From the NCBI GenBank assembly GCA_016209155.1, contig JACQWU010000021.1, positions 1 through 7,679 on the forward strand: a stretch of 7,679 bases of DNA. Direction: 5' to 3'. This stretch comes from Candidatus Desantisiibacteriota bacterium. GTDB lineage: Bacteria; JACRDZ01. Below, piece after piece: positions 1 through 7,679 of the stretch (within the stretch, counting starts at the first letter, position 1; each line of letters starts with the position of its first letter). The notes below the pieces were generated by a model, which searched no databases, was not told the DNA's origin, and worked only from the letters and a program-made list of their open reading frames with translations. The translations under genes were made by a program, and so were the position numbers.

Positions 1-527
1 TATTCTTTTGCTTCAGCGGATGAGCGGATATCCGGTTCGCTTACGATTTCAAGCAGCGGGATTCCCGCTCTGTTAAGGTCAACAAAGCTTCCTTCTGCAT
101 TTTGAAAGCTGTCATTCATGTGTAATAATTTTCCTGCATCTTCTTCCATATGTACGCGGTTAATATGTACTTTTTTTGTGATGTCTTCAAGTGTTATTTC
201 AATAAAACCATTTTTACCGAGCGGTTTGTCAAATTGTGATATTTGATAGCCTTTTGGCAGGTCGGGATAGAAATAGTTTTTACGGTCGAATTTGCAATAT
301 TCCGATATCTGGCAATTTGTGGCAAGTGCTGTTCGGATTGCGAAATTGAGGGCTTTTTTATTGTATACGGGCAGAACTCCGGGCATGGCGAGGCATATAG
401 GGCAGACTTGTGTGTTGGGCTTGCTGCCGAATTGGGTGCTGCATCCGCAGAAGGCTTTGGTTTTACTCATGACTTGCGCGTGGACTTCCAGCCCTATTAC
501 TATTTCAATGTTTTCGTTATTTATCAT
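1..527 (-). CDS. gatB: Aspartyl/glutamyl-tRNA(Asn/Gln) amidotransferase subunit B, N-terminal part (cut by window edge)
   Basis: GatB is the subunit of the GatCAB complex that binds mischarged Glu-tRNA(Gln) or Asp-tRNA(Asn) and activates the side chain, so that ammonia from GatA can convert it to the amide; it acts in the cytoplasm. The first 175 residues are visible, roughly the first third of a protein usually near 475 residues. The family signatures are intact: GLEVHAQ at 12-18, a zinc-type cysteine set CxC (27-29) and CxxC (42-45), MPGVLPV (48-54), [14 protein letters not shown] (85-98), HMEEDAGKL (126-134) and [18 protein letters not shown] (150-167). The ATG at 527 has an AGGAGA ribosome site 5-6 bases upstream. 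It lies 56 bases after the small membrane gene on the same strand. I see no clear promoter or terminator in that gap, so read-through from the upstream unit is possible. Neither gatA nor gatC is in the window. Confidence 0.97.
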
Positions 528-583
528 ATTATCTCCTTTTAGGAATTGGTAATTTTTTATCTCTTTTTTACTTTTGACAGTAC

Positions 584-820
584 TTATAAATTTTTAATTA
601 ATAATAATTTAATTGCTATCCATAGCATGCATATTATGCCTGTAAAAGTGATTATGATTCCTGTAATAAAAAGATAAGCTCCTATTTTGAATAAAAAAAT
701 ATCTTTTGTGATTGACGGCAGTAAAAATAAGCTTATAAGGGTTATTGTGTTACCGGCAATAAGCAGAAAAATAATAATTTTGTGTAATATGTTTTTATCT
801 GAATTTGTTGATTCTGACAT
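584..820 (-). CDS. Small two-helix membrane protein, function unknown
   Basis: I do not recognise a family for this 78-residue protein. It has a short polar N-terminus (about 1-13, [10 protein letters not shown]), a first hydrophobic helix at about 15-34, a short linker with Pro35 and charged KD at 39-40, and a long second hydrophobic stretch at about 46-75 ending in KNL. It therefore looks like an integral inner-membrane hairpin with little soluble part. It is probably a real gene: a GGAGA ribosome site sits 5 bases before the ATG, and the ATG is only 16 bases after the stop of the L,D-transpeptidase gene, so the two are probably co-transcribed. That context suggests a role at the envelope, but nothing in the sequence gives an activity. 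The low-complexity, Ile/Leu-rich composition makes similarity searches weak. Confidence 0.75.
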
Positions 821-836
821 GGATGTCTCCAGAGCT

Positions 837-1604
837 TTAGTTTATTTCCACTTTTGTACCTTTTGGAATAATTTTGTATAATTCTTCAACATCATGGTTG
901 TGCATTCTGATGCATCCGGAACTTACGCTTTTCCCTATTGATTCAGGTTGGTTTGTTCCATGTATTCCGTATTGTGTTCTTTCTTTAAATCCCATCCATC
1001 TGGAGCCCAGTCCGTTTTTTGGGTCACCTCCTGGTATGTTTTTACCATCGAGTGTCCATGTGGGATTCGGGATTCTATTTTCTATTGTGAAAATACCTTT
1101 AGGCGTAGGGGAATCTGATTTTCCGACAGCTACAGGGTATTGTTTTATTTTTTCTTTGTCTTTGTATAAAATAAGTATGTTTTTTTTTGTATCTATTTTT
1201 ATTTTTAGTAGAGATGTATAACCGGGAATTGAAATTTTTTGTCCTATTTGAAGTGAGGCCGCGGATTTGATGTTGTTTAATTCCATTATAAATTCATATG
1301 GGACGTTATAGGTATTGGCAATTGAATTCAGGTTGTCTCCGGATTTAATGGTATAAGATGTTAATGCGGTGCGCGGATAGCCGGCAAGGAGCATTTTAAT
1401 ATTTAAGGATTCTATTGAGTCAAGGATTTTTTGATCATTATTATTTTTTGCTATAAGTGAGGTGTATATGTTTTTTGCTTCTTCAAGTTTTCCGGTTGAT
1501 TCATATTTTTTTGCCTGAAGAAATAGGTCTTCTGCTTTTATTTGATTTGATGTAATTGCTGTAAAGAAGATTGCCGTAATGATGATGAAATATCTTTTGT
1601 ACAT
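837..1604 (-). CDS. Exported L,D-transpeptidase with LysM domain (YkuD family)
   Basis: This 255-residue protein is predicted to be exported and to act on peptidoglycan. YkuD enzymes use a cysteine to form 3-3 (meso-diaminopimelate) crosslinks or to attach proteins to stem peptides. Domains in order: signal peptide about 1-24 with cleavage after KA; one TPR-like helical hairpin about 26-52 (AKKYESTGKLEEAKNIY); LysM about 84-127 (YTIKSGDNLNSIANTYNVP, ending in IGQKISIP), which would bind glycan; and the YkuD catalytic domain about 133-254. The catalytic motif is intact: HGT at 215-217 and SSGCIRM at 228-234, with His215 and Cys231 the likely catalytic pair. The family's TPKG (167-170) and GSRWMGF (200-206) are also present. 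The ATG at 1604 has AGGAG 10 bases upstream, a slightly long spacing. It appears to be the first gene of a unit with the small membrane protein. Whether it crosslinks, anchors proteins or hydrolyses cannot be told from sequence. Confidence 0.93.
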   Translation of the reverse strand: MYKRYFIIITAIFFTAITSNQIKAEDLFLQAKKYESTGKLEEAKNIYTSLIAKNNNDQKILDSIESLNIKMLLAGYPRTALTSYTIKSGDNLNSIANTYNVPYEFIMELNNIKSAASLQIGQKISIPGYTSLLKIKIDTKKNILILYKDKEKIKQYPVAVGKSDSPTPKGIFTIENRIPNPTWTLDGKNIPGGDPKNGLGSRWMGFKERTQYGIHGTNQPESIGKSVSSGCIRMHNHDVEELYKIIPKGTKVEIN

Positions 1605-1635
1605 AATTGTGATGCTCCTTTTTTTTAATTGAGAT

Positions 1636-1664
1636 ATATTATAAATAATATATTTTTATGTAAA
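1636..1664 (-). promoter_or_regulatory. Predicted sigma-70-type promoter for the L,D-transpeptidase unit
   Basis: Reading the minus strand, TTTACA (1659-1664) lies 17 bases before TAATAT (1636-1641). The overlapping perfect TATAAT (1638-1643) gives a 15-base spacing to the same -35. A second TTTACA copy occupies 1665-1670. Transcription would start near 1628-1630, about 25 bases before the ATG at 1604. The surroundings are so AT-rich that chance matches are common. Even so, its place in the only sizeable gap upstream of the gene supports it. Confidence 0.5.
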
Positions 1665-1678
1665 TGTAAACAGTTTAT

Positions 1679-3775
1679 TTAAACAATTTTTGATTTTACC
1701 TGTTCTAATCTTTGTTTAATGTTGATTGTTGACGGCCATAATCCGTTTTTATCAAGACTGTTGAAAAAAGCATAAACTACTTCAGGGTCAAATTGGGTTC
1801 CTGCTTTTTCTGCTAAAGTAATCAGGATAGATTCCTGTGTAATAGTATTATTTCTATAAGTTCTGAAGCTCTTCATTGCATCATAGCTGTCTGCAACAGC
1901 AATGATTCTTGCGCCTAAAGGAATAAGTTTACCTTTTAAGCCTATCGGGTATCCTTTTCCGTCAAACCATTCATGGTGGTGTAAGATTATATCCAGTTCG
2001 TGTCTTACATAAGTGGTCTTGCGTAAAATATTAAAGGCTATTACAGGGTGTTGTTTTATTGTGGAATATTCTTCTTCGGATAATTCTTCTTTTTTAAATA
2101 TAATTTCATCAGGGATTGTTATTTTTCCCAGATCATGTAAAATAGCCGCGTTGCCAATAATCGCGGTTTCATTTTTTTGCAGATGCATTTCATCTGCTAT
2201 CATTAAAACATATCTAAACACATTTAAGGAATGTTCACGCATATACGGATCTTTTTTTTCATATGCCGATATTAACATCCTTATGGATTCTAAATATGAT
2301 TGGGTTGAAGGTTCTTCAACTTCAAATATTTTATCTTCTAAATGTTTTATTTTCATTTCTTCCATGACAGCGATGTTTTTAATATTTTTATACATAACTA
2401 TATTATTTCTTCCGGCCATTTTTGCGGAATAAAGGGCTAAATCGGAAAATCCTAATAATTTATCCTTGTCTTTTACCCCATCCTCAAATAAAGAGGACAG
2501 TCCGATACTTACGGTTAATTTGGCTGAGATATCCGCGTCTTTAAATTCACGGGATTCTATGTAAGTTCTTATTTTCTCCGAAATTATCAAGGCTTTTCCG
2601 TAATCGGATTCAATAAGTAAAATACTAAATTCCTCTCCTCCGTATCTGGCCAAAATATCACTTTCCCTGATGCACTTTTTTATGCAATCAGCAATTTCAA
2701 CAAGAACTTTATCTCCAAATAAATGGCCATAGGTGTCATTTATTTTTTTAAAGTAATCTATATCCAGCATCAGGCATGTTATGTTTTGTCCGTATCTTTT
2801 AGCTCGGGAAAATTCATTGGTTAAGGCATCACGAAAATATCCGTGATTATAAAGTTTGGTTAAACTGTCTCTTATTGATATTTCTTTTAATGCTATCATT
2901 AAATTCTGCATTTTTTCTTCTATTATTTTACGCTCATGCAGTTCATTTTGAAGTTCTTTGTTGACGCTTGATAATTCTTCTGTGCGCTTAGCAACTTTAT
3001 TTTCCATATCTATGCCGTGTAATTCAAGTTCTGTATCGCGTTTCTGGATTTGTTCTAACATGTAATTAAAACAGTTTGATAATAAGCCTATTTCATCTTT
3101 TCGTTTAACGGCGGTTCTTATGGAATAATCCTTTTTGATGGAAATATTTTTCATTAATATTGCCAGATCCTTTATGGGTTTAGTAAGTATTCCCTGGGAT
3201 AATATTAATAAAAACAGTATAAAAATAAAAATGGAAATAGAAACCATGGTAATATAATAGATTAGTTTATTGATTTGTTTCCGGATTTCTTGTTCCGACA
3301 TGCCGATAATAATTTTGCCTACGGTTTCATTTCCTATGGAAATGGGATATGAAATTTCATTTATTCCGGTTTTATTTTTAATGGAGTTTATGGTGTATGC
3401 AAGGTCAGCTTCTTTGGGCTGAACGGATAATATTTGTTTAAGTTCAGGCATGTTTAGATTTAAGCTTGCAAAAAAAGATGTGACTATGCGGTTATTATTA
3501 TCTTGTATAAAAGCATATGCAACTTCGGGGTCATGATTGATTGTGCTTACTATGTCATCCAGTTGGAGATAATTTTTGGAAATTAAGGGGTCTTGTCCGA
3601 TTTCAGCTATATAGTTAGCAAAGCTGCGGCCTTTTGTTGTCAGGGTTTTTCTTAGAAGCTTAATATTGCTGCTGACAAGAACTGTTCCTGCAATGATTCC
3701 TCCAAATACTACGATTATCAGCGCTAAACTTACAAATTTGAATTGCAGGCTTTCTTGAAATTTTTTTATCAGCAT
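1679..3775 (-). CDS. Membrane c-di-GMP enzyme: Cache-like sensor, HAMP, GGDEF and HD-GYP
   Basis: This 698-residue protein combines a c-di-GMP synthase domain with a c-di-GMP hydrolase domain. In order: TM1 about 14-36; an extracytoplasmic region about 37-168 that looks like a Cache/PAS-type sensor (VAYAFIQDNNNRIVTSFF, then PISIGNETVGKIIIGMS before the next helix); TM2 about 171-193; HAMP about 194-247 (KPIKDLA); a coiled coil about 248-298; GGDEF about 300-465; HD-GYP about 490-690. The synthase site reads GGEEF at 379-383, with the inhibitory-site RxxD intact as RESD at 370-373. The phosphodiesterase has HS (515-516), HDLGK (547-551), QHP (575-577), HHE (600-602), DGKGYP (605-610) and VAD (627-629), so its metal ligands look complete. 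The stretch after YDAM reads KSFRTYR where SDRPYR is usual. The ATG at 3775 has only a modest AAAGG site, and it starts 13 bases after the substrate-binding protein gene. Both activities look intact; which one dominates, and its ligand, are not visible. Confidence 0.95.
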   Translation of the reverse strand: MLIKKFQESLQFKFVSLALIIVVFGGIIAGTVLVSSNIKLLRKTLTTKGRSFANYIAEIGQDPLISKNYLQLDDIVSTINHDPEVAYAFIQDNNNRIVTSFFASLNLNMPELKQILSVQPKEADLAYTINSIKNKTGINEISYPISIGNETVGKIIIGMSEQEIRKQINKLIYYITMVSISIFIFILFLLILSQGILTKPIKDLAILMKNISIKKDYSIRTAVKRKDEIGLLSNCFNYMLEQIQKRDTELELHGIDMENKVAKRTEELSSVNKELQNELHERKIIEEKMQNLMIALKEISIRDSLTKLYNHGYFRDALTNEFSRAKRYGQNITCLMLDIDYFKKINDTYGHLFGDKVLVEIADCIKKCIRESDILARYGGEEFSILLIESDYGKALIISEKIRTYIESREFKDADISAKLTVSIGLSSLFEDGVKDKDKLLGFSDLALYSAKMAGRNNIVMYKNIKNIAVMEEMKIKHLEDKIFEVEEPSTQSYLESIRMLISAYEKKDPYMREHSLNVFRYVLMIADEMHLQKNETAIIGNAAILHDLGKITIPDEIIFKKEELSEEEYSTIKQHPVIAFNILRKTTYVRHELDIILHHHEWFDGKGYPIGLKGKLIPLGARIIAVADSYDAMKSFRTYRNNTITQESILITLAEKAGTQFDPEVVYAFFNSLDKNGLWPSTINIKQRLEQVKSKIV

Positions 3776-3788
3776 ATTTAAACCTTTT

Positions 3789-4757
3789 TTATTCTATTGT
3801 TTTTGTTACTAATTTCATGAAATCCGGCGGGATCTTAAATTGTCCCGATTTTATGGTTTTTTGATTTAAAATTACGTTGAAATTTTTTAGCGGTTCTATC
3901 GGTATATCCGAGGGTTTAGCGCCTCTTAGTACCATTGCCGCTTTTTTGCCTGCCAAACGTCCCATTTCACGCGGGTCAGCGCTTAATCCAAATAATACTC
4001 CTTTTGTTACAGGGTCTTCCAGATGTGTAAATGTGATTGTTTTGGATTTTGAGGTTATTTCTACTATTTCAGGAATGGTTTCATCCATAATCCCGCTTCC
4101 GGAAACATAAATAGCTTCAACTTTCTCTGCCGCAAAAGATAAAATATTCTTCACTTCTTCCTTTCTTTTGATCGGAATAGGTATTACTTTAATGTTAAAT
4201 TCCTGTTCTGATTTTTGAAGATTTTTTAGTTGAGCTTCGGAATTGGTCTGCCCGGGGGTATAAAGAACTCCTATGTTTTTTATGGGTTTTAATTTTTTTA
4301 GAACTTCCAAAATCCGGGGCATTGGGACATAGGAGCTTGATCCTGTTGTGTTGTTGCCGGAATTCTGCCAGCCTAAAGAAATTTTTGACTCTACAGGGTC
4401 ATATACTGTGCTGAAAATAATAGGGGTGTCTTTTATTTCATTTGCGAGTGCTACAGCTGCGGAAGTACCGATGGTATAGTACATTGTTAATTTGTAGGCG
4501 GCAAATTTTTGAGCTATTTTCATGGCTTTTACTTTATTTGCGTCAGCCAGTTCTGTTATAAACTCTACTTCATTTTCAGTAAATCCTTCCTTTTTTTTTT
4601 TTTTTATGAAACCTTCTTTTGAGTCGCTGTAACGCGATTCGGTGCTCCACTGAAGTATTCCTATTTTCTTTTTTTCTGCCATTGTTTTTGTGGAAAATAA
4701 TGATATTACGATAAAAATAATACTTAGTATGAATATTTTGGATATTATTTTTTTCAT
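3789..4757 (-). CDS. Periplasmic substrate-binding protein, PF04392 (TrpX-like) family, without transporter partners
   Basis: This 322-residue protein is typical in length for PF04392 (ABC transporter substrate-binding, type I periplasmic fold); characterised members bind tryptophan or related amino acids. An export signal covers residues 1-27 (KK, a long hydrophobic run, then TMA before EKKK) and has no lipobox Cys, so it should be free in the periplasm. Family features seen: KKIGILQWS at the start of the mature fold, YTIGTSAAVALAN (94-106), PIIFSTVYDPV (112-122), GVLYTPGQTNSEAQ (163-176) and the DETIPEI stretch near 225. I chose the ATG at 4757 because it has AGGGGGA just upstream and begins a clean signal peptide; a TTG at 4793 would add 12 residues with no ribosome site. 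No permease or ATPase gene is adjacent; the next gene, 13 bases away, is a membrane c-di-GMP enzyme. Codons 51-56 include a run of 15 A. The ligand is not readable from sequence. Confidence 0.9.
   Translation of the reverse strand: MKKIISKIFILSIIFIVISLFSTKTMAEKKKIGILQWSTESRYSDSKEGFIKKKKKEGFTENEVEFITELADANKVKAMKIAQKFAAYKLTMYYTIGTSAAVALANEIKDTPIIFSTVYDPVESKISLGWQNSGNNTTGSSSYVPMPRILEVLKKLKPIKNIGVLYTPGQTNSEAQLKNLQKSEQEFNIKVIPIPIKRKEEVKNILSFAAEKVEAIYVSGSGIMDETIPEIVEITSKSKTITFTHLEDPVTKGVLFGLSADPREMGRLAGKKAAMVLRGAKPSDIPIEPLKNFNVILNQKTIKSGQFKIPPDFMKLVTKTIE
4591..4605 (-). repeat. Homopolymer of 15 A (coding strand) inside the substrate-binding protein gene
   Basis: The plus strand shows 15 consecutive T between C4590 and A4606. 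On the coding strand this is A15 followed by GG, encoding the last base of Ile51 and Lys52-Lys56 of the substrate-binding protein. The frame is intact as given. Runs of this length are prone to polymerase slippage and to sequencing error. Confidence 0.95.
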
Positions 4758-4760
4758 TTT

Positions 4761-4767
4761 TCCCCCT
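4761..4767 (-). promoter_or_regulatory. Ribosome binding site that fixes the start of the substrate-binding protein
   Basis: The minus strand reads AGGGGGA, then AAA, then ATG at 4757. This G-rich site is the only good Shine-Dalgarno match near the 5' end of the gene. It decides for 4757 over the in-frame TTG at 4793. Confidence 0.75.
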
Positions 4768-4800
4768 ATTATGATAGAAATTGGTAATGTCAAAGATTAA

Positions 4801-4821
4801 TCACAGAGTAAATCTCTGTAA
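4801..4821 (-). promoter_or_regulatory. Hairpin in the 5' leader of the substrate-binding protein / c-di-GMP enzyme unit
   Basis: On the minus strand TTACAGAG (4814-4821) pairs with CTCTGTGA (4801-4808) around the loop ATTTA: eight pairs, one a T-G wobble. It lies in the predicted leader, between the promoter and the ATG at 4757. It overlaps the 3' half and the stop codon of a possible 10-codon ORF. No T-run follows, so it is not a simple intrinsic terminator. As a near-symmetric DNA element it could instead be an operator. Confidence 0.5.
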
Positions 4822-4833
4822 CCTGTGGTTCAT
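4801..4833 (-). CDS. Possible 10-codon leader peptide ORF
   Basis: Starting at ATG 4833 the minus strand encodes MNHRLQRFTL and stops at TGA (4801-4803). An AAAAGGA ribosome site (4842-4848) lies 8 bases upstream. The ORF sits just after the predicted promoter, and its second half forms the leader hairpin, an arrangement like that of attenuator or translation-coupled leader peptides. Against it: the predicted transcript start (about 4842-4846) falls within the ribosome site, so the 5' end of the mRNA may lack part of it. The peptide also has no run of one amino acid that would suggest classical attenuation. An ORF this short can arise by chance. Confidence 0.3.
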   Translation of the reverse strand: MNHRLQRFTL

Positions 4834-4850
4834 TTTTTGTATCCTTTTTA

Positions 4851-4879
4851 ATTTAAGCATATAGAAACAGGGCTGTCAA
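4851..4879 (-). promoter_or_regulatory. Strong sigma-70-type promoter of the substrate-binding protein / c-di-GMP enzyme unit
   Basis: The minus strand has a perfect TTGACA (4874-4879), a 17-base spacer, and TTAAAT (4851-4856) preceded by TGC, which forms an extended -10 (TGn). This is the best promoter match in the window. The start of transcription would be near 4844, giving a 5' leader of about 85 bases before the ATG at 4757. Confidence 0.7.
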
Positions 4880-4921
4880 GAAATTTATAGATTTTCGATT
4901 TTTTTTTATGGTTTTATTTGT

Positions 4922-4949
4922 TTGTATTTTATTTTTCTTTTGTTATAAT
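4922..4949 (+). promoter_or_regulatory. Predicted promoter of the TPR gene
   Basis: A perfect TATAAT (4944-4949) is preceded, 16 bases earlier, by a weak -35, TTGTAT (4922-4927). Transcription would begin near 4956, about 70 bases before the TPR start codon. It points away from the minus-strand promoter at 4851-4879; the two -35 boxes are about 42 bases apart, so the units are transcribed divergently and could share regulators. Confidence 0.45.
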
Positions 4950-4963
4950 ATGGAAATATTTTT

Positions 4964-5032
4964 ATGGAATATAATTTAAAGAAAGATGTAAAAGATGCCG
5001 ATTTATATATCTATAATAAGGGTAATTTATGA
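4964..5032 (+). CDS. Possible 22-codon upstream ORF overlapping the TPR start codon (ATGA)
   Basis: ATG at 4964 opens a 22-codon frame (starting MEYNLKKD, ending YNKGNL) whose TGA stop (5030-5032) overlaps the ATG of the TPR gene in an ATGA. This is the classic arrangement for translational coupling. Support is thin. There is no ribosome site for the short ORF, it would start only about 8 bases into the predicted transcript, and the peptide has no recognisable feature. The TPR gene also has its own AAGGG site inside the short ORF. Confidence 0.2.
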   Translation: MEYNLKKDVKDADLYIYNKGNL

Positions 5033-7679
5033 TAAAAAAAAGTTTTAATTTAAAAGTATTTTTATTGTTATGTATTTTATTTATATCGGTAAGTATAAGT
5101 GCGGGTGATGCTAATGAGGAAGAGCAGTATCATATTGCTTTTTCTGCATTTAATGATCAGTTGTATGATTTAGCGTTAAATCAGTTTGATAAATTTATTA
5201 AAAATTTTCCCGGGAGCAGTAAGTTAGATAAGGCTCAATATATTGTAGCTGAGGTTTATTTTAAGCTGGGGAGATTGGATGATGCAATTGTAAATTTTGA
5301 AAGATTAATTTCAAAATATCCGCAAAGTGATCTTATTGAAGATGCTCTGAACCGGATTGGTGAAATATTTTTTCAGAAGAAGCAGTATGAGGATGTCATT
5401 AATCAATATACCCGTCTCCTTACGTATAATCCCCAAAGTAAGTTTGCCGATGAAGCTCAATACTGGATTGGAGAGGCTTATTTTAATTTGAAAAATTTTA
5501 ACAGGGCTATTATTTATTATCAGAATATTATTACTAATTATGGCAAAAGTAAAAAAGTGCCTTATGCTTATTATTCAATAGGTTGGTGTTATTTTCTTGA
5601 TAATAAATTTGAAAATGCCGTGAAAATGTTCCAGGAGGTTATTAAGCAGTACAATGATATGACGATTGCTGAATCATCCAGGTATTATCTGTCTGAATCT
5701 TATCTCCATCTCGGGCAGGCAAATCAGGCAATAGTTGAATTCGAGCAATTTATTAAAAATTATCCGGATAGTAAATATATTGATAATGCTTATTATTATC
5801 AAAGCGAGGCTTATTTGAGAATTAAGGAATACAAAAAAGCACGTGATGGATATTATGTGATAAAAAATAAATTCACTAAAAGTCAATGGTTTGATGATTC
5901 TGCTTATTATATCGGGATGACTTATCTTTATGAAAAAAATTTTGATTTTGCTCTTGTGGAATTTCAAAATTTTATAAAGGAATTTAAGGAAAGTGAATGG
6001 ATTCCGTTTGCTGTTCAGAAAATAGCTCAGGTGTATGAGCTTAATAATAAGTATGGAGATGCGGTGAAGCGTTATAGCGAAATTGTTAAAAATAATCCCG
6101 AATTGAAAAATAAGGATGATCTGTATTACGGTATAGCATTTTCATATTTTAAACTGGGATTGTTCGATTCTTCAATAATGGCGGCAAATAAAATAATTAA
6201 TGAGTATAAGGACAGTAAATTAGTATCTCCGGCAAATTATTTGATCGGGGAGAATTTATTCTTTGGTAAAAAATACAGTGAGGCTGTCGGGGCTTATCAA
6301 AAAGTATTAGATTTATCCGCTTCACCTGTTTCTTTAAAAACGGATTCGGAATATAAAATTGCTCTTTCTCATTTTTATAATAAGGATTTTAAAGAGGCTT
6401 GTGAAATTTTTTCAAATCTTACTAATATAAAAGATTTTAAGTTTCGCGATCGTACGCAATTTTTACTGGCGGAATCTCTATATCAGCTTAAAAAATATGA
6501 TTCTGCTTTTAAAATTTATCAAAAATTAATGGCGGATTTTAAGGATAGTGAGCTTACTAAGGAAGCTCAATATGGTGTGTCCTGGATATATTTGAAAAAA
6601 GGTGAGGATGTCGCAGCATTGCAGAATTTTATGACATTGGCTGAGAAAAATAAGGGTGCTGATATAGGGGCAAAAGCCCAGCTTCAGGCAGGTAAAATTC
6701 TGTCTGAAAAGAAAAGGTACACTGAGGCTATTAAAGTCTATGGTGATTTTTTAAAGGTTTATCCCAAATATCAGGAAGCTCCTGATGCTCAATTTCAGGT
6801 TGCGTGGGGGTATTATAATCTGGAAAAATTTGATGAAGCGCGTGCTGAATTTAAGGTATTGATGAGTCAATATCCTAAAAGCAGTCTGCTTGATAGTGCG
6901 CAGTATTGGCTTGCATGGTGTTATTTCAGGGAAAATGATTTTAATAATGCTATTTTGGAGTTTAATAAGATTATTGAGAATTATCCCGGCAGTAAATTGA
7001 AGGTTGATGCGCAGTATCGTATTGGTGATTCATATTATAATTTACAGGATTATGGAAAAGCTGTAATTGAATATAATAAGGTGGTAATAATCGATTCAAA
7101 AGGAGATATGGCTGATGATGCTTTGTATGCTGTGGTATGGGCATATTATCAAATGGGCAAAGTAGATGAGGCTATTGAAAATGCCAGAAAATTTATGGTG
7201 GATTATCATAATAGCAGTCTGGTTCCGGATATTCAATACAGGATAGCTGAAATTTATTATGCGCGAAAGGATTATGCAAAAGCTGCGGAGGAATTCGGGG
7301 TTTTTATTGATAAATATCCATATACGGATGTTACGGATAATGCTTATTACTGGAAGGCGTATTCTTATTTACAGGATAAAAAATACGATGAAGCTATAGA
7401 ATATTTTAATAAAATGTTAAATAAGTATCCTGATTCTGAAATGGCTGAGGATTCTAATTACGGGCTGGCTTCGACAATGTTTAAGAAGGAAAAATATAGA
7501 GAGGCTATTGAGGAGTATAATAAATTTTTAAAAAAATATCCCGGGACGAGAATGAAAGAAAATATTGAATATAATATGGGTATTTCATACCGCAATCTTA
7601 AGGATTGGAAAGGTGCAATTGAAATATTTAAAAAGTTTGAGACTTCTTATTCTAAAAGCACTTTGATTAATAATGCATA
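5029..7679 (+). CDS. Very long exported tetratricopeptide-repeat protein, 3' end outside the window
   Basis: At least 883 residues are visible and the frame is still open at the right edge. Residues 1-25 form a signal peptide (IKKSFNLK, a hydrophobic run, then SISA before GDANEEE). Cys15 lies inside the hydrophobic core without a lipobox, so a lipoprotein is unlikely. The rest is an unbroken array of TPR units of the YbgF/BamD-like type, about ...YPxSxxxxxAxYxxGxxYxxxxxYxxAIxxF... Anchor positions (FPGS at 60, YPQS at 97, and so on to YSKS at 874) recur every 37 residues, giving 23 units without an indel. There is no enzymatic domain in the visible part. Such solenoids are protein-docking scaffolds; export suggests the periplasm or inner face of the outer membrane, with unknown partners. 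ATG 5029 is chosen because an in-frame TAA lies at 5023-5025 and AAGGG (5018-5022) is 6 bases upstream. C-terminal domains may lie beyond the edge. Confidence 0.93.
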   Translation, partial: MIKKSFNLKVFLLLCILFISVSISAGDANEEEQYHIAFSAFNDQLYDLALNQFDKFIKNFPGSSKLDKAQYIVAEVYFKLGRLDDAIVNFERLISKYPQSDLIEDALNRIGEIFFQKKQYEDVINQYTRLLTYNPQSKFADEAQYWIGEAYFNLKNFNRAIIYYQNIITNYGKSKKVPYAYYSIGWCYFLDNKFENAVKMFQEVIKQYNDMTIAESSRYYLSESYLHLGQANQAIVEFEQFIKNYPDSKYIDNAYYYQSEAYLRIKEYKKARDGYYVIKNKFTKSQWFDDSAYYIGMTYLYEKNFDFALVEFQNFIKEFKESEWIPFAVQKIAQVYELNNKYGDAVKRYSEIVKNNPELKNKDDLYYGIAFSYFKLGLFDSSIMAANKIINEYKDSKLVSPANYLIGENLFFGKKYSEAVGAYQKVLDLSASPVSLKTDSEYKIALSHFYNKDFKEACEIFSNLTNIKDFKFRDRTQFLLAESLYQLKKYDSAFKIYQKLMADFKDSELTKEAQYGVSWIYLKKGEDVAALQNFMTLAEKNKGADIGAKAQLQAGKILSEKKRYTEAIKVYGDFLKVYPKYQEAPDAQFQVAWGYYNLEKFDEARAEFKVLMSQYPKSSLLDSAQYWLAWCYFRENDFNNAILEFNKIIENYPGSKLKVDAQYRIGDSYYNLQDYGKAVIEYNKVVIIDSKGDMADDALYAVVWAYYQMGKVDEAIENARKFMVDYHNSSLVPDIQYRIAEIYYARKDYAKAAEEFGVFIDKYPYTDVTDNAYYWKAYSYLQDKKYDEAIEYFNKMLNKYPDSEMAEDSNYGLASTMFKKEKYREAIEEYNKFLKKYPGTRMKENIEYNMGISYRNLKDWKGAIEIFKKFETSYSKSTLINNA
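5206..7679 (+). repeat. Diverged tandem repeat of 111 bases (37 codons), 23 units
   Basis: The TPR gene is built of 111-base units counted from the aromatic-Pro anchor codon at 5206 (residue 60) to the matching codon at 7648 (residue 874): 22 intervals of exactly 37 codons. The units are diverged at DNA level; only short pieces such as TATCCCGG are reused. The repeat is therefore old and held by protein structure rather than recently amplified. Units near residues 430, 467, 541 and 689 have lost the YP anchor but keep the register. Confidence 0.85.

Follow-up and report, generated by a model that had tools for sequence, protein, structure and literature searches.

When a gene for a substrate-binding protein (SBP) adjoins one for a membrane-bound cyclic di-GMP (c-di-GMP) enzyme, does the binding protein serve transport or signalling? 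This question is raised by a stretch of DNA from a Candidatus Desantisiibacteriota bacterium (assembly GCA_016209155.1, contig JACQWU010000021.1, positions 1 to 7,679), the whole 7,679 nucleotides of which are called the window here. The genome assembly spans 3.08 Mb in 352 contigs and is 79 per cent complete.

Gene content of the locus

A first-pass annotation of the window described a PF04392 gene followed, after 13 bases (3776-3788), by a gene for a membrane c-di-GMP enzyme, and open reading frames and Pfam domains bear this out (Table 1). It also stated that no permease or ATPase gene adjoins the pair, which is indeed the case. Upstream of the SBP gene lies a divergent gene for a TPR protein (5029 on), and downstream of the receptor gene lies one for an L,D-transpeptidase (837-1604). 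An Rfam scan returned nothing at thresholds, so that neither a T-box nor any other riboswitch is indicated ahead of the SBP gene, and a promoter scan gave fewer sites than in its shuffles.

Table 1. Features of the SBP and receptor genes in the window.
Feature	Position	Strand	Evidence
SBP gene (PF04392 periplasmic binding protein, 322 aa)	3789..4757	(-)	ORF; PF04392 E 6e-44
Signal-peptide-like N-terminus of SBP, residues 1-27, without lipobox cysteine	4677..4757	(-)	Sequence
Receptor gene, 698 aa, TM-Cache-like-TM-HAMP-GGDEF-HD-GYP	1679..3775	(-)	ORF; Pfam domains
Periplasmic sensor domain, residues 36-168, putative YfiN/CHASE8-like Cache	3272..3670	(-)	sCache_3_2 weak; NF053592 below cutoff; conserved in nine operons
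HAMP domain, residues 197-244	3044..3187	(-)	PF00672 E 4e-7
GGDEF domain, residues 301-458, GGEEF and RESD I-site	2402..2875	(-)	PF00990 E 2e-43; motifs in sequence
HD-GYP domain, residues 501-666, HD, HHHE and GYP motifs	1778..2275	(-)	PF13487 (HD_5) E 4e-34; motifs in sequence
DNA-similarity block common to window and G003 (80.3%), putative transferred unit	1706..4766	(-)	blastn, fourfold sites, reciprocal best hits

The divergent operon (window 5029-7679 and L033 8070-9689) encodes a long TPR protein and then a match to the barrel of a TonB-dependent receptor. TonB-receptor genes often adjoin relatives of the SBP, and a link between the pair and this operon is conceivable.

The SBP is not a PotD-like protein (the NspS type of polyamine SBP); its sole Pfam match is to PF04392, and the assembly has no other gene of this family. 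As its N-terminus reads as signal-peptide-like, ending ...TMA/EKK, and the protein contains no cysteine, it looks soluble and not like a lipoprotein.

The receptor joins a periplasmic sensor to cyclase and phosphodiesterase domains with curated-domain matches (GGDEF and HD-GYP). Since the motifs of the cyclase (GGEEF, residues 379-383; the RESD I-site, an RxxD inhibitory motif, 370-373) and of the phosphodiesterase (HD, 547-548; HHHE, 599-602; GYP, 608-610) are all intact, both activities are possible. The match of sCache_3_2 to the receptor is weak (E 3e-4, 21 bits, cutoff 28.4). NF053592 ('YfiR-like protein-associated') aligns with residues 9-244 at E 8e-18, under its own cutoff.

Conservation of the SBP and sensor pair

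Relatives of the SBP were sought in 384 genomes from the phylum to which the Omnitrophota hit belongs and in 386 genomes across many families. Six of these carry members of the same SBP clade, in addition to the window genome and G003, which comes from the window's phylum but from a different family. In a maximum-likelihood tree the clade is one group of ten proteins from nine operons (support 99/98). The SBP gene stands directly before the same sensor type in every one of the nine, at distances of -43 to +40 bases; one operon has two SBPs, the second of which adjoins the sensor gene. On this nine-of-nine count, chance adjacency of the SBP and receptor genes was rejected. The layout noted by the first-pass annotation, a gene pair with no adjoining permease, is found again in G003, and the nine operons keep the same sensor.

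All nine operons share a TM-Cache-TM-HAMP front, and the outputs differ: GGDEF-HD-GYP in the window and G003, a histidine kinase in six Omnitrophota operons, and a hybrid kinase in G695. Distances between SBPs are correlated with those between periplasmic sensors (r = 0.87, or 0.79 without the near-identical G003, versus 0.57 for HAMP), which serves as supporting evidence only, as joint inheritance in an operon would by itself give part of this correlation. In these operons the SBP follows the sensor domain and not the output domain. The closest sister group of SBPs, in Omnitrophota, mostly does not stand before this sensor type, which counts against the module proposed below. In a plasmid collection, homologues were found only below 60 per cent identity.

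Other arrangements of PF04392 genes were also seen. Three Omnitrophota loci (L124 2223-6745, L125 3542-8987, and L126 3604-9099) hold a row of genes for a TonB receptor, a PF04392 protein, a Cache-like histidine kinase, and a GGDEF response regulator; they belong to a wider PF04392 signalling class with a different cleft signature. Two PF04392 units are fused in one 621-aa chain before a histidine kinase in L119 (6012-7877), and three in one 978-aa chain near permease and ATPase genes in L134 (4265-7201). L043 (1629-3954) has a gene for a phosphonate-binding-like SBP, then a PF04392-like gene, and then a third gene, cut by the contig end, whose product is weakly similar to the window sensor domain.

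Transport and the ligand

Three solved PF04392 relatives bind Tyr, Phe, and Trp and have been assigned to importers (PMC6816091). The window SBP could likewise be a TrpX-like transport component, served by a permease and ATPase from another locus; its place beside the receptor gene would then reflect co-regulation only. The incompleteness of the window genome leaves some room for this explanation. A TrpY query nevertheless had no match in that genome, 79 per cent complete, while both positive controls were found. Its BPD_transp_2 permeases comprise only two adjacent pairs, both on other contigs; the pair on contig C49 has a Peripla_BP_6 SBP before it and Liv-type ATPases after it. The first-pass annotation had named consistent co-occurrence with a TrpY/TrpZ-like permease and ATPase as evidence against its proposal. 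In seven of the eight genomes that carry the SBP clade no TrpY-like permease was found; in G695 one is encoded on the same contig, 39 kb from the SBP/sensor pair, which speaks for the transport explanation.

The residues that would hold the ligand also speak against this explanation. TrpX is reported to contact its amino acid through T108, A127, T129, D152, and N233 (PMC9382623). The window SBP, about 26-28 per cent identical to permease-linked homologues, shares the PF04392 fold with TrpX but reads T/T/Y/S/G at these positions, with Y, S, and G in place of T129, D152, and N233. The T/A/T/D/N set is kept in all eleven permease-linked homologues of the survey and in none of the twenty-three sensor-linked ones (Fisher P = 3e-9, ignoring shared ancestry); it is absent from all ten members of the SBP clade. 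The window SBP also scores only 167 bits with the TrpX equivalog NF041285, which has a cutoff of 390. The first-pass annotation had suggested a TrpX-family protein, perhaps with an aromatic amino acid as its ligand. Because the T/A/T/D/N set is missing from the clade, such a ligand is disfavoured and this part of the suggestion is probably wrong. In place of the TrpX contacts, the clade conserves R42, Y119, and, in most members, H245, which points to a binding site that has been retained but is different.

TrpX-type transport was rejected as a first-choice reading, since the ligand signature is absent and the permease was not found. Unlike a TrpXYZ importer, the window pair has no adjoining permease or ATPase, and the pair appears to have moved between genomes without a permease (see below). 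We regard the transport explanation as very improbable.

Probable joint transfer of the pair

G003 was one of three other genomes of the window's phylum that we compared, and it carries both genes (SBP 83 per cent and receptor 81 per cent identical), which overlap there by 8 bases. The contig is also represented by JAQUKH010000034.1 ('bacterium isolate STD1_102'). The flanks of the G003 pair are unrelated to those in the window. Similarity at the DNA level starts 9 bases before the SBP start and stops 27 bases before the receptor stop, and the only other DNA match is a single stray one of 30 bases.

Sampled contigs provided the background for window/G003 identity. In a sample of thirty-four reciprocal best hits, the SBP and the receptor rank first and second, and the next protein is 73 per cent identical; GatB is 67-69 per cent identical between the two genomes. 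At fourfold-degenerate sites, identity reaches 0.47 and 0.55 in the two genes of the pair, and six other genes lie in the range 0.24-0.38. G001, which is placed in the genus of G003, lacks members of the SBP clade. As the similarity is limited to the two genes and these hold the top ranks among the reciprocal best hits, the simplest reading is that both genes probably moved together, and alone, between lineages after the lineages had split.

Origin of the receptor

Four genomes were searched for relatives of the GGDEF-HD-GYP part of the receptor. The nearest one outside both pairs is in G001 (59 per cent identical), and the other relatives listed are 34-45 per cent identical. The G001 protein is a REC-GGDEF-HD-GYP response regulator whose gene closes a run of genes for SBPs and histidine kinases. 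The comparison suggests that the window receptor arose when an SBP-coupled sensor was joined to a response-regulator output, so that a phosphorelay became one protein.

In the G001 array (L223, G001:C33:55000-74500, at 5083-17586), a dCache kinase accompanies a PF04392 protein, a second kinase accompanies a PBP_like_2 protein, and an unassigned 371-aa protein adjoins an sCache_3_2 kinase.

A putative co-receptor module

The proposal in the first-pass annotation that the SBP signals to the c-di-GMP receptor, and does not serve a transporter, comes out well supported: the pair is conserved without an adjoining permease gene, joint transfer is probable, and SBP and sensor remain together when the output changes. 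We consider it quite likely that the two genes encode a self-contained module for signalling, with the SBP as a co-receptor for the c-di-GMP enzyme instead of a transport component. The best reading, by analogy, is a module that works like NspS-MbaA and is laid out like YfiR-YfiN.

In such a module, a small molecule from outside would bind the cleft between the lobes of the SBP, which would then dock on the receptor's sensor domain, a putative dimer of the YfiN type (Cache/CHASE8-like). The signal would pass through TM2, the HAMP domain, and a coiled linker and tip the receptor towards either synthesis by its GGDEF cyclase or breakdown by its HD-GYP phosphodiesterase; the ligand would in this way set c-di-GMP directly. 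The predicted models of the two partners are too low in confidence to support docking (SBP: pLDDT 61, pTM 0.41, from a four-row alignment; sensor: pLDDT 44, pTM 0.27, from a three-row alignment). Going by YfiR, it is slightly more likely that one state of the SBP represses the cyclase than that it activates it.

The comparison with YfiR involves both partners. The sensor appears to be similar to that of YfiN and to those of kinases with a YfiR-associated annotation, going by NF053592, which scores below its cutoff, and a partial hhalign match. With E. coli DgcN, hhalign gave a probability of 93 per cent for an alignment confined to the last part of the sensor, TM2, and HAMP, and CHASE8 matched weakly in two Omnitrophota relatives. 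In sequence the SBP and E. coli YfiR are not similar, and the closest Dali neighbours of YfiR are the PF04392 structures 3LFT and 3LKV (PMC4655355). With a putatively YfiN-like sensor and a YfiR that is structurally near PF04392, each protein of the window pair would have its counterpart in YfiR-YfiN.

These likenesses, and the loss of the amino-acid-binding residues, would also suit an SBP that is a ligand-free repressor of the YfiR kind, responding to protein contact or the state of the envelope with a cleft that no longer binds a small molecule. We think this unlikely. The window SBP is a full two-lobed SBP, and the residues conserved across its clade (R42, Y119, and mostly H245) suggest that a site of another kind has been kept. 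Disulphide sensing in the style of YfiR is impossible for a protein that has no cysteine, and no YfiB-like gene adjoins the pair. PF13689 (DUF4154) had no match in the window genome, and among the carrier and neighbouring genomes the YfiR homologues were one in G369, above cutoff, and one in G209 that matched weakly.

For the co-receptor module a broader history can be sketched, which we offer tentatively and with some doubt. Two-lobed PF04392 SBPs may have left transport to gate YfiN-type sensors, forming an uncharacterised lineage that links importer SBPs to YfiR-type regulators and senses a ligand other than an aromatic amino acid. In the window's phylum, the relay of kinase and response regulator might then have collapsed into a sensor-GGDEF-HD-GYP fusion.

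Comparison with known systems

The pair probably turns a molecule from outside directly into an internal c-di-GMP signal. Since the same two-gene module occurs with different outputs, the rule that the SBP follows the sensor and not the output is directly testable, and the module suggests a route from transport SBPs to YfiR-like regulators. In a 2022 survey, receptors were known targets of 13 of 22 SBP families, the signalling role was described as largely unexplored, and SBP-driven diguanylate cyclase and phosphodiesterase receptors were an established kind (PMC9602780). A review counts a single studied case among the periplasmic-binding-protein clan domains that occur in c-di-GMP enzymes (PMC8846402). 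Among the titles and abstracts searched we found no characterised receptor-coupled PF04392 protein, which is weak evidence of novelty.

NspS-MbaA of Vibrio cholerae, also present in Sinorhizobium meliloti (PMC9993111), is similar in that a periplasmic SBP that has no transporter of its own acts on a receptor in the membrane carrying cyclase and phosphodiesterase domains, and the two genes adjoin. NspS, however, is PotD-like and senses polyamines, whereas the window SBP belongs to PF04392; MbaA has an EAL domain where the window receptor has HD-GYP, and contact between the window proteins is a prediction.

In YfiR-YfiN (DgcN) of the YfiBNR system, a gene for a small periplasmic partner likewise precedes one for a TM-sensor-TM-HAMP-GGDEF receptor; in E. 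coli, yfiR is directly followed by dgcN. The differences are that YfiR is a DUF4154 (PF13689) protein while the window SBP matches PF04392 only, that YfiN lacks HD-GYP, and that the window locus lacks a YfiB-like gene.

SBP-coupled histidine kinases, such as AgtS and AruS with their SBPs (PMC11113362) and BctC-BctE, also have adjoining SBP and receptor genes and an SBP that acts on the periplasmic domain, as predicted for the window. They differ in their SBP families and in having a kinase output, where the direct output in the window would be c-di-GMP, though close relatives of the window SBP adjoin kinases too. SBP-driven c-di-GMP receptors are known already, and what the window would add is a GGDEF/HD-GYP enzyme with a PF04392 protein as its co-receptor, within a wider family of SBP-sensor modules.
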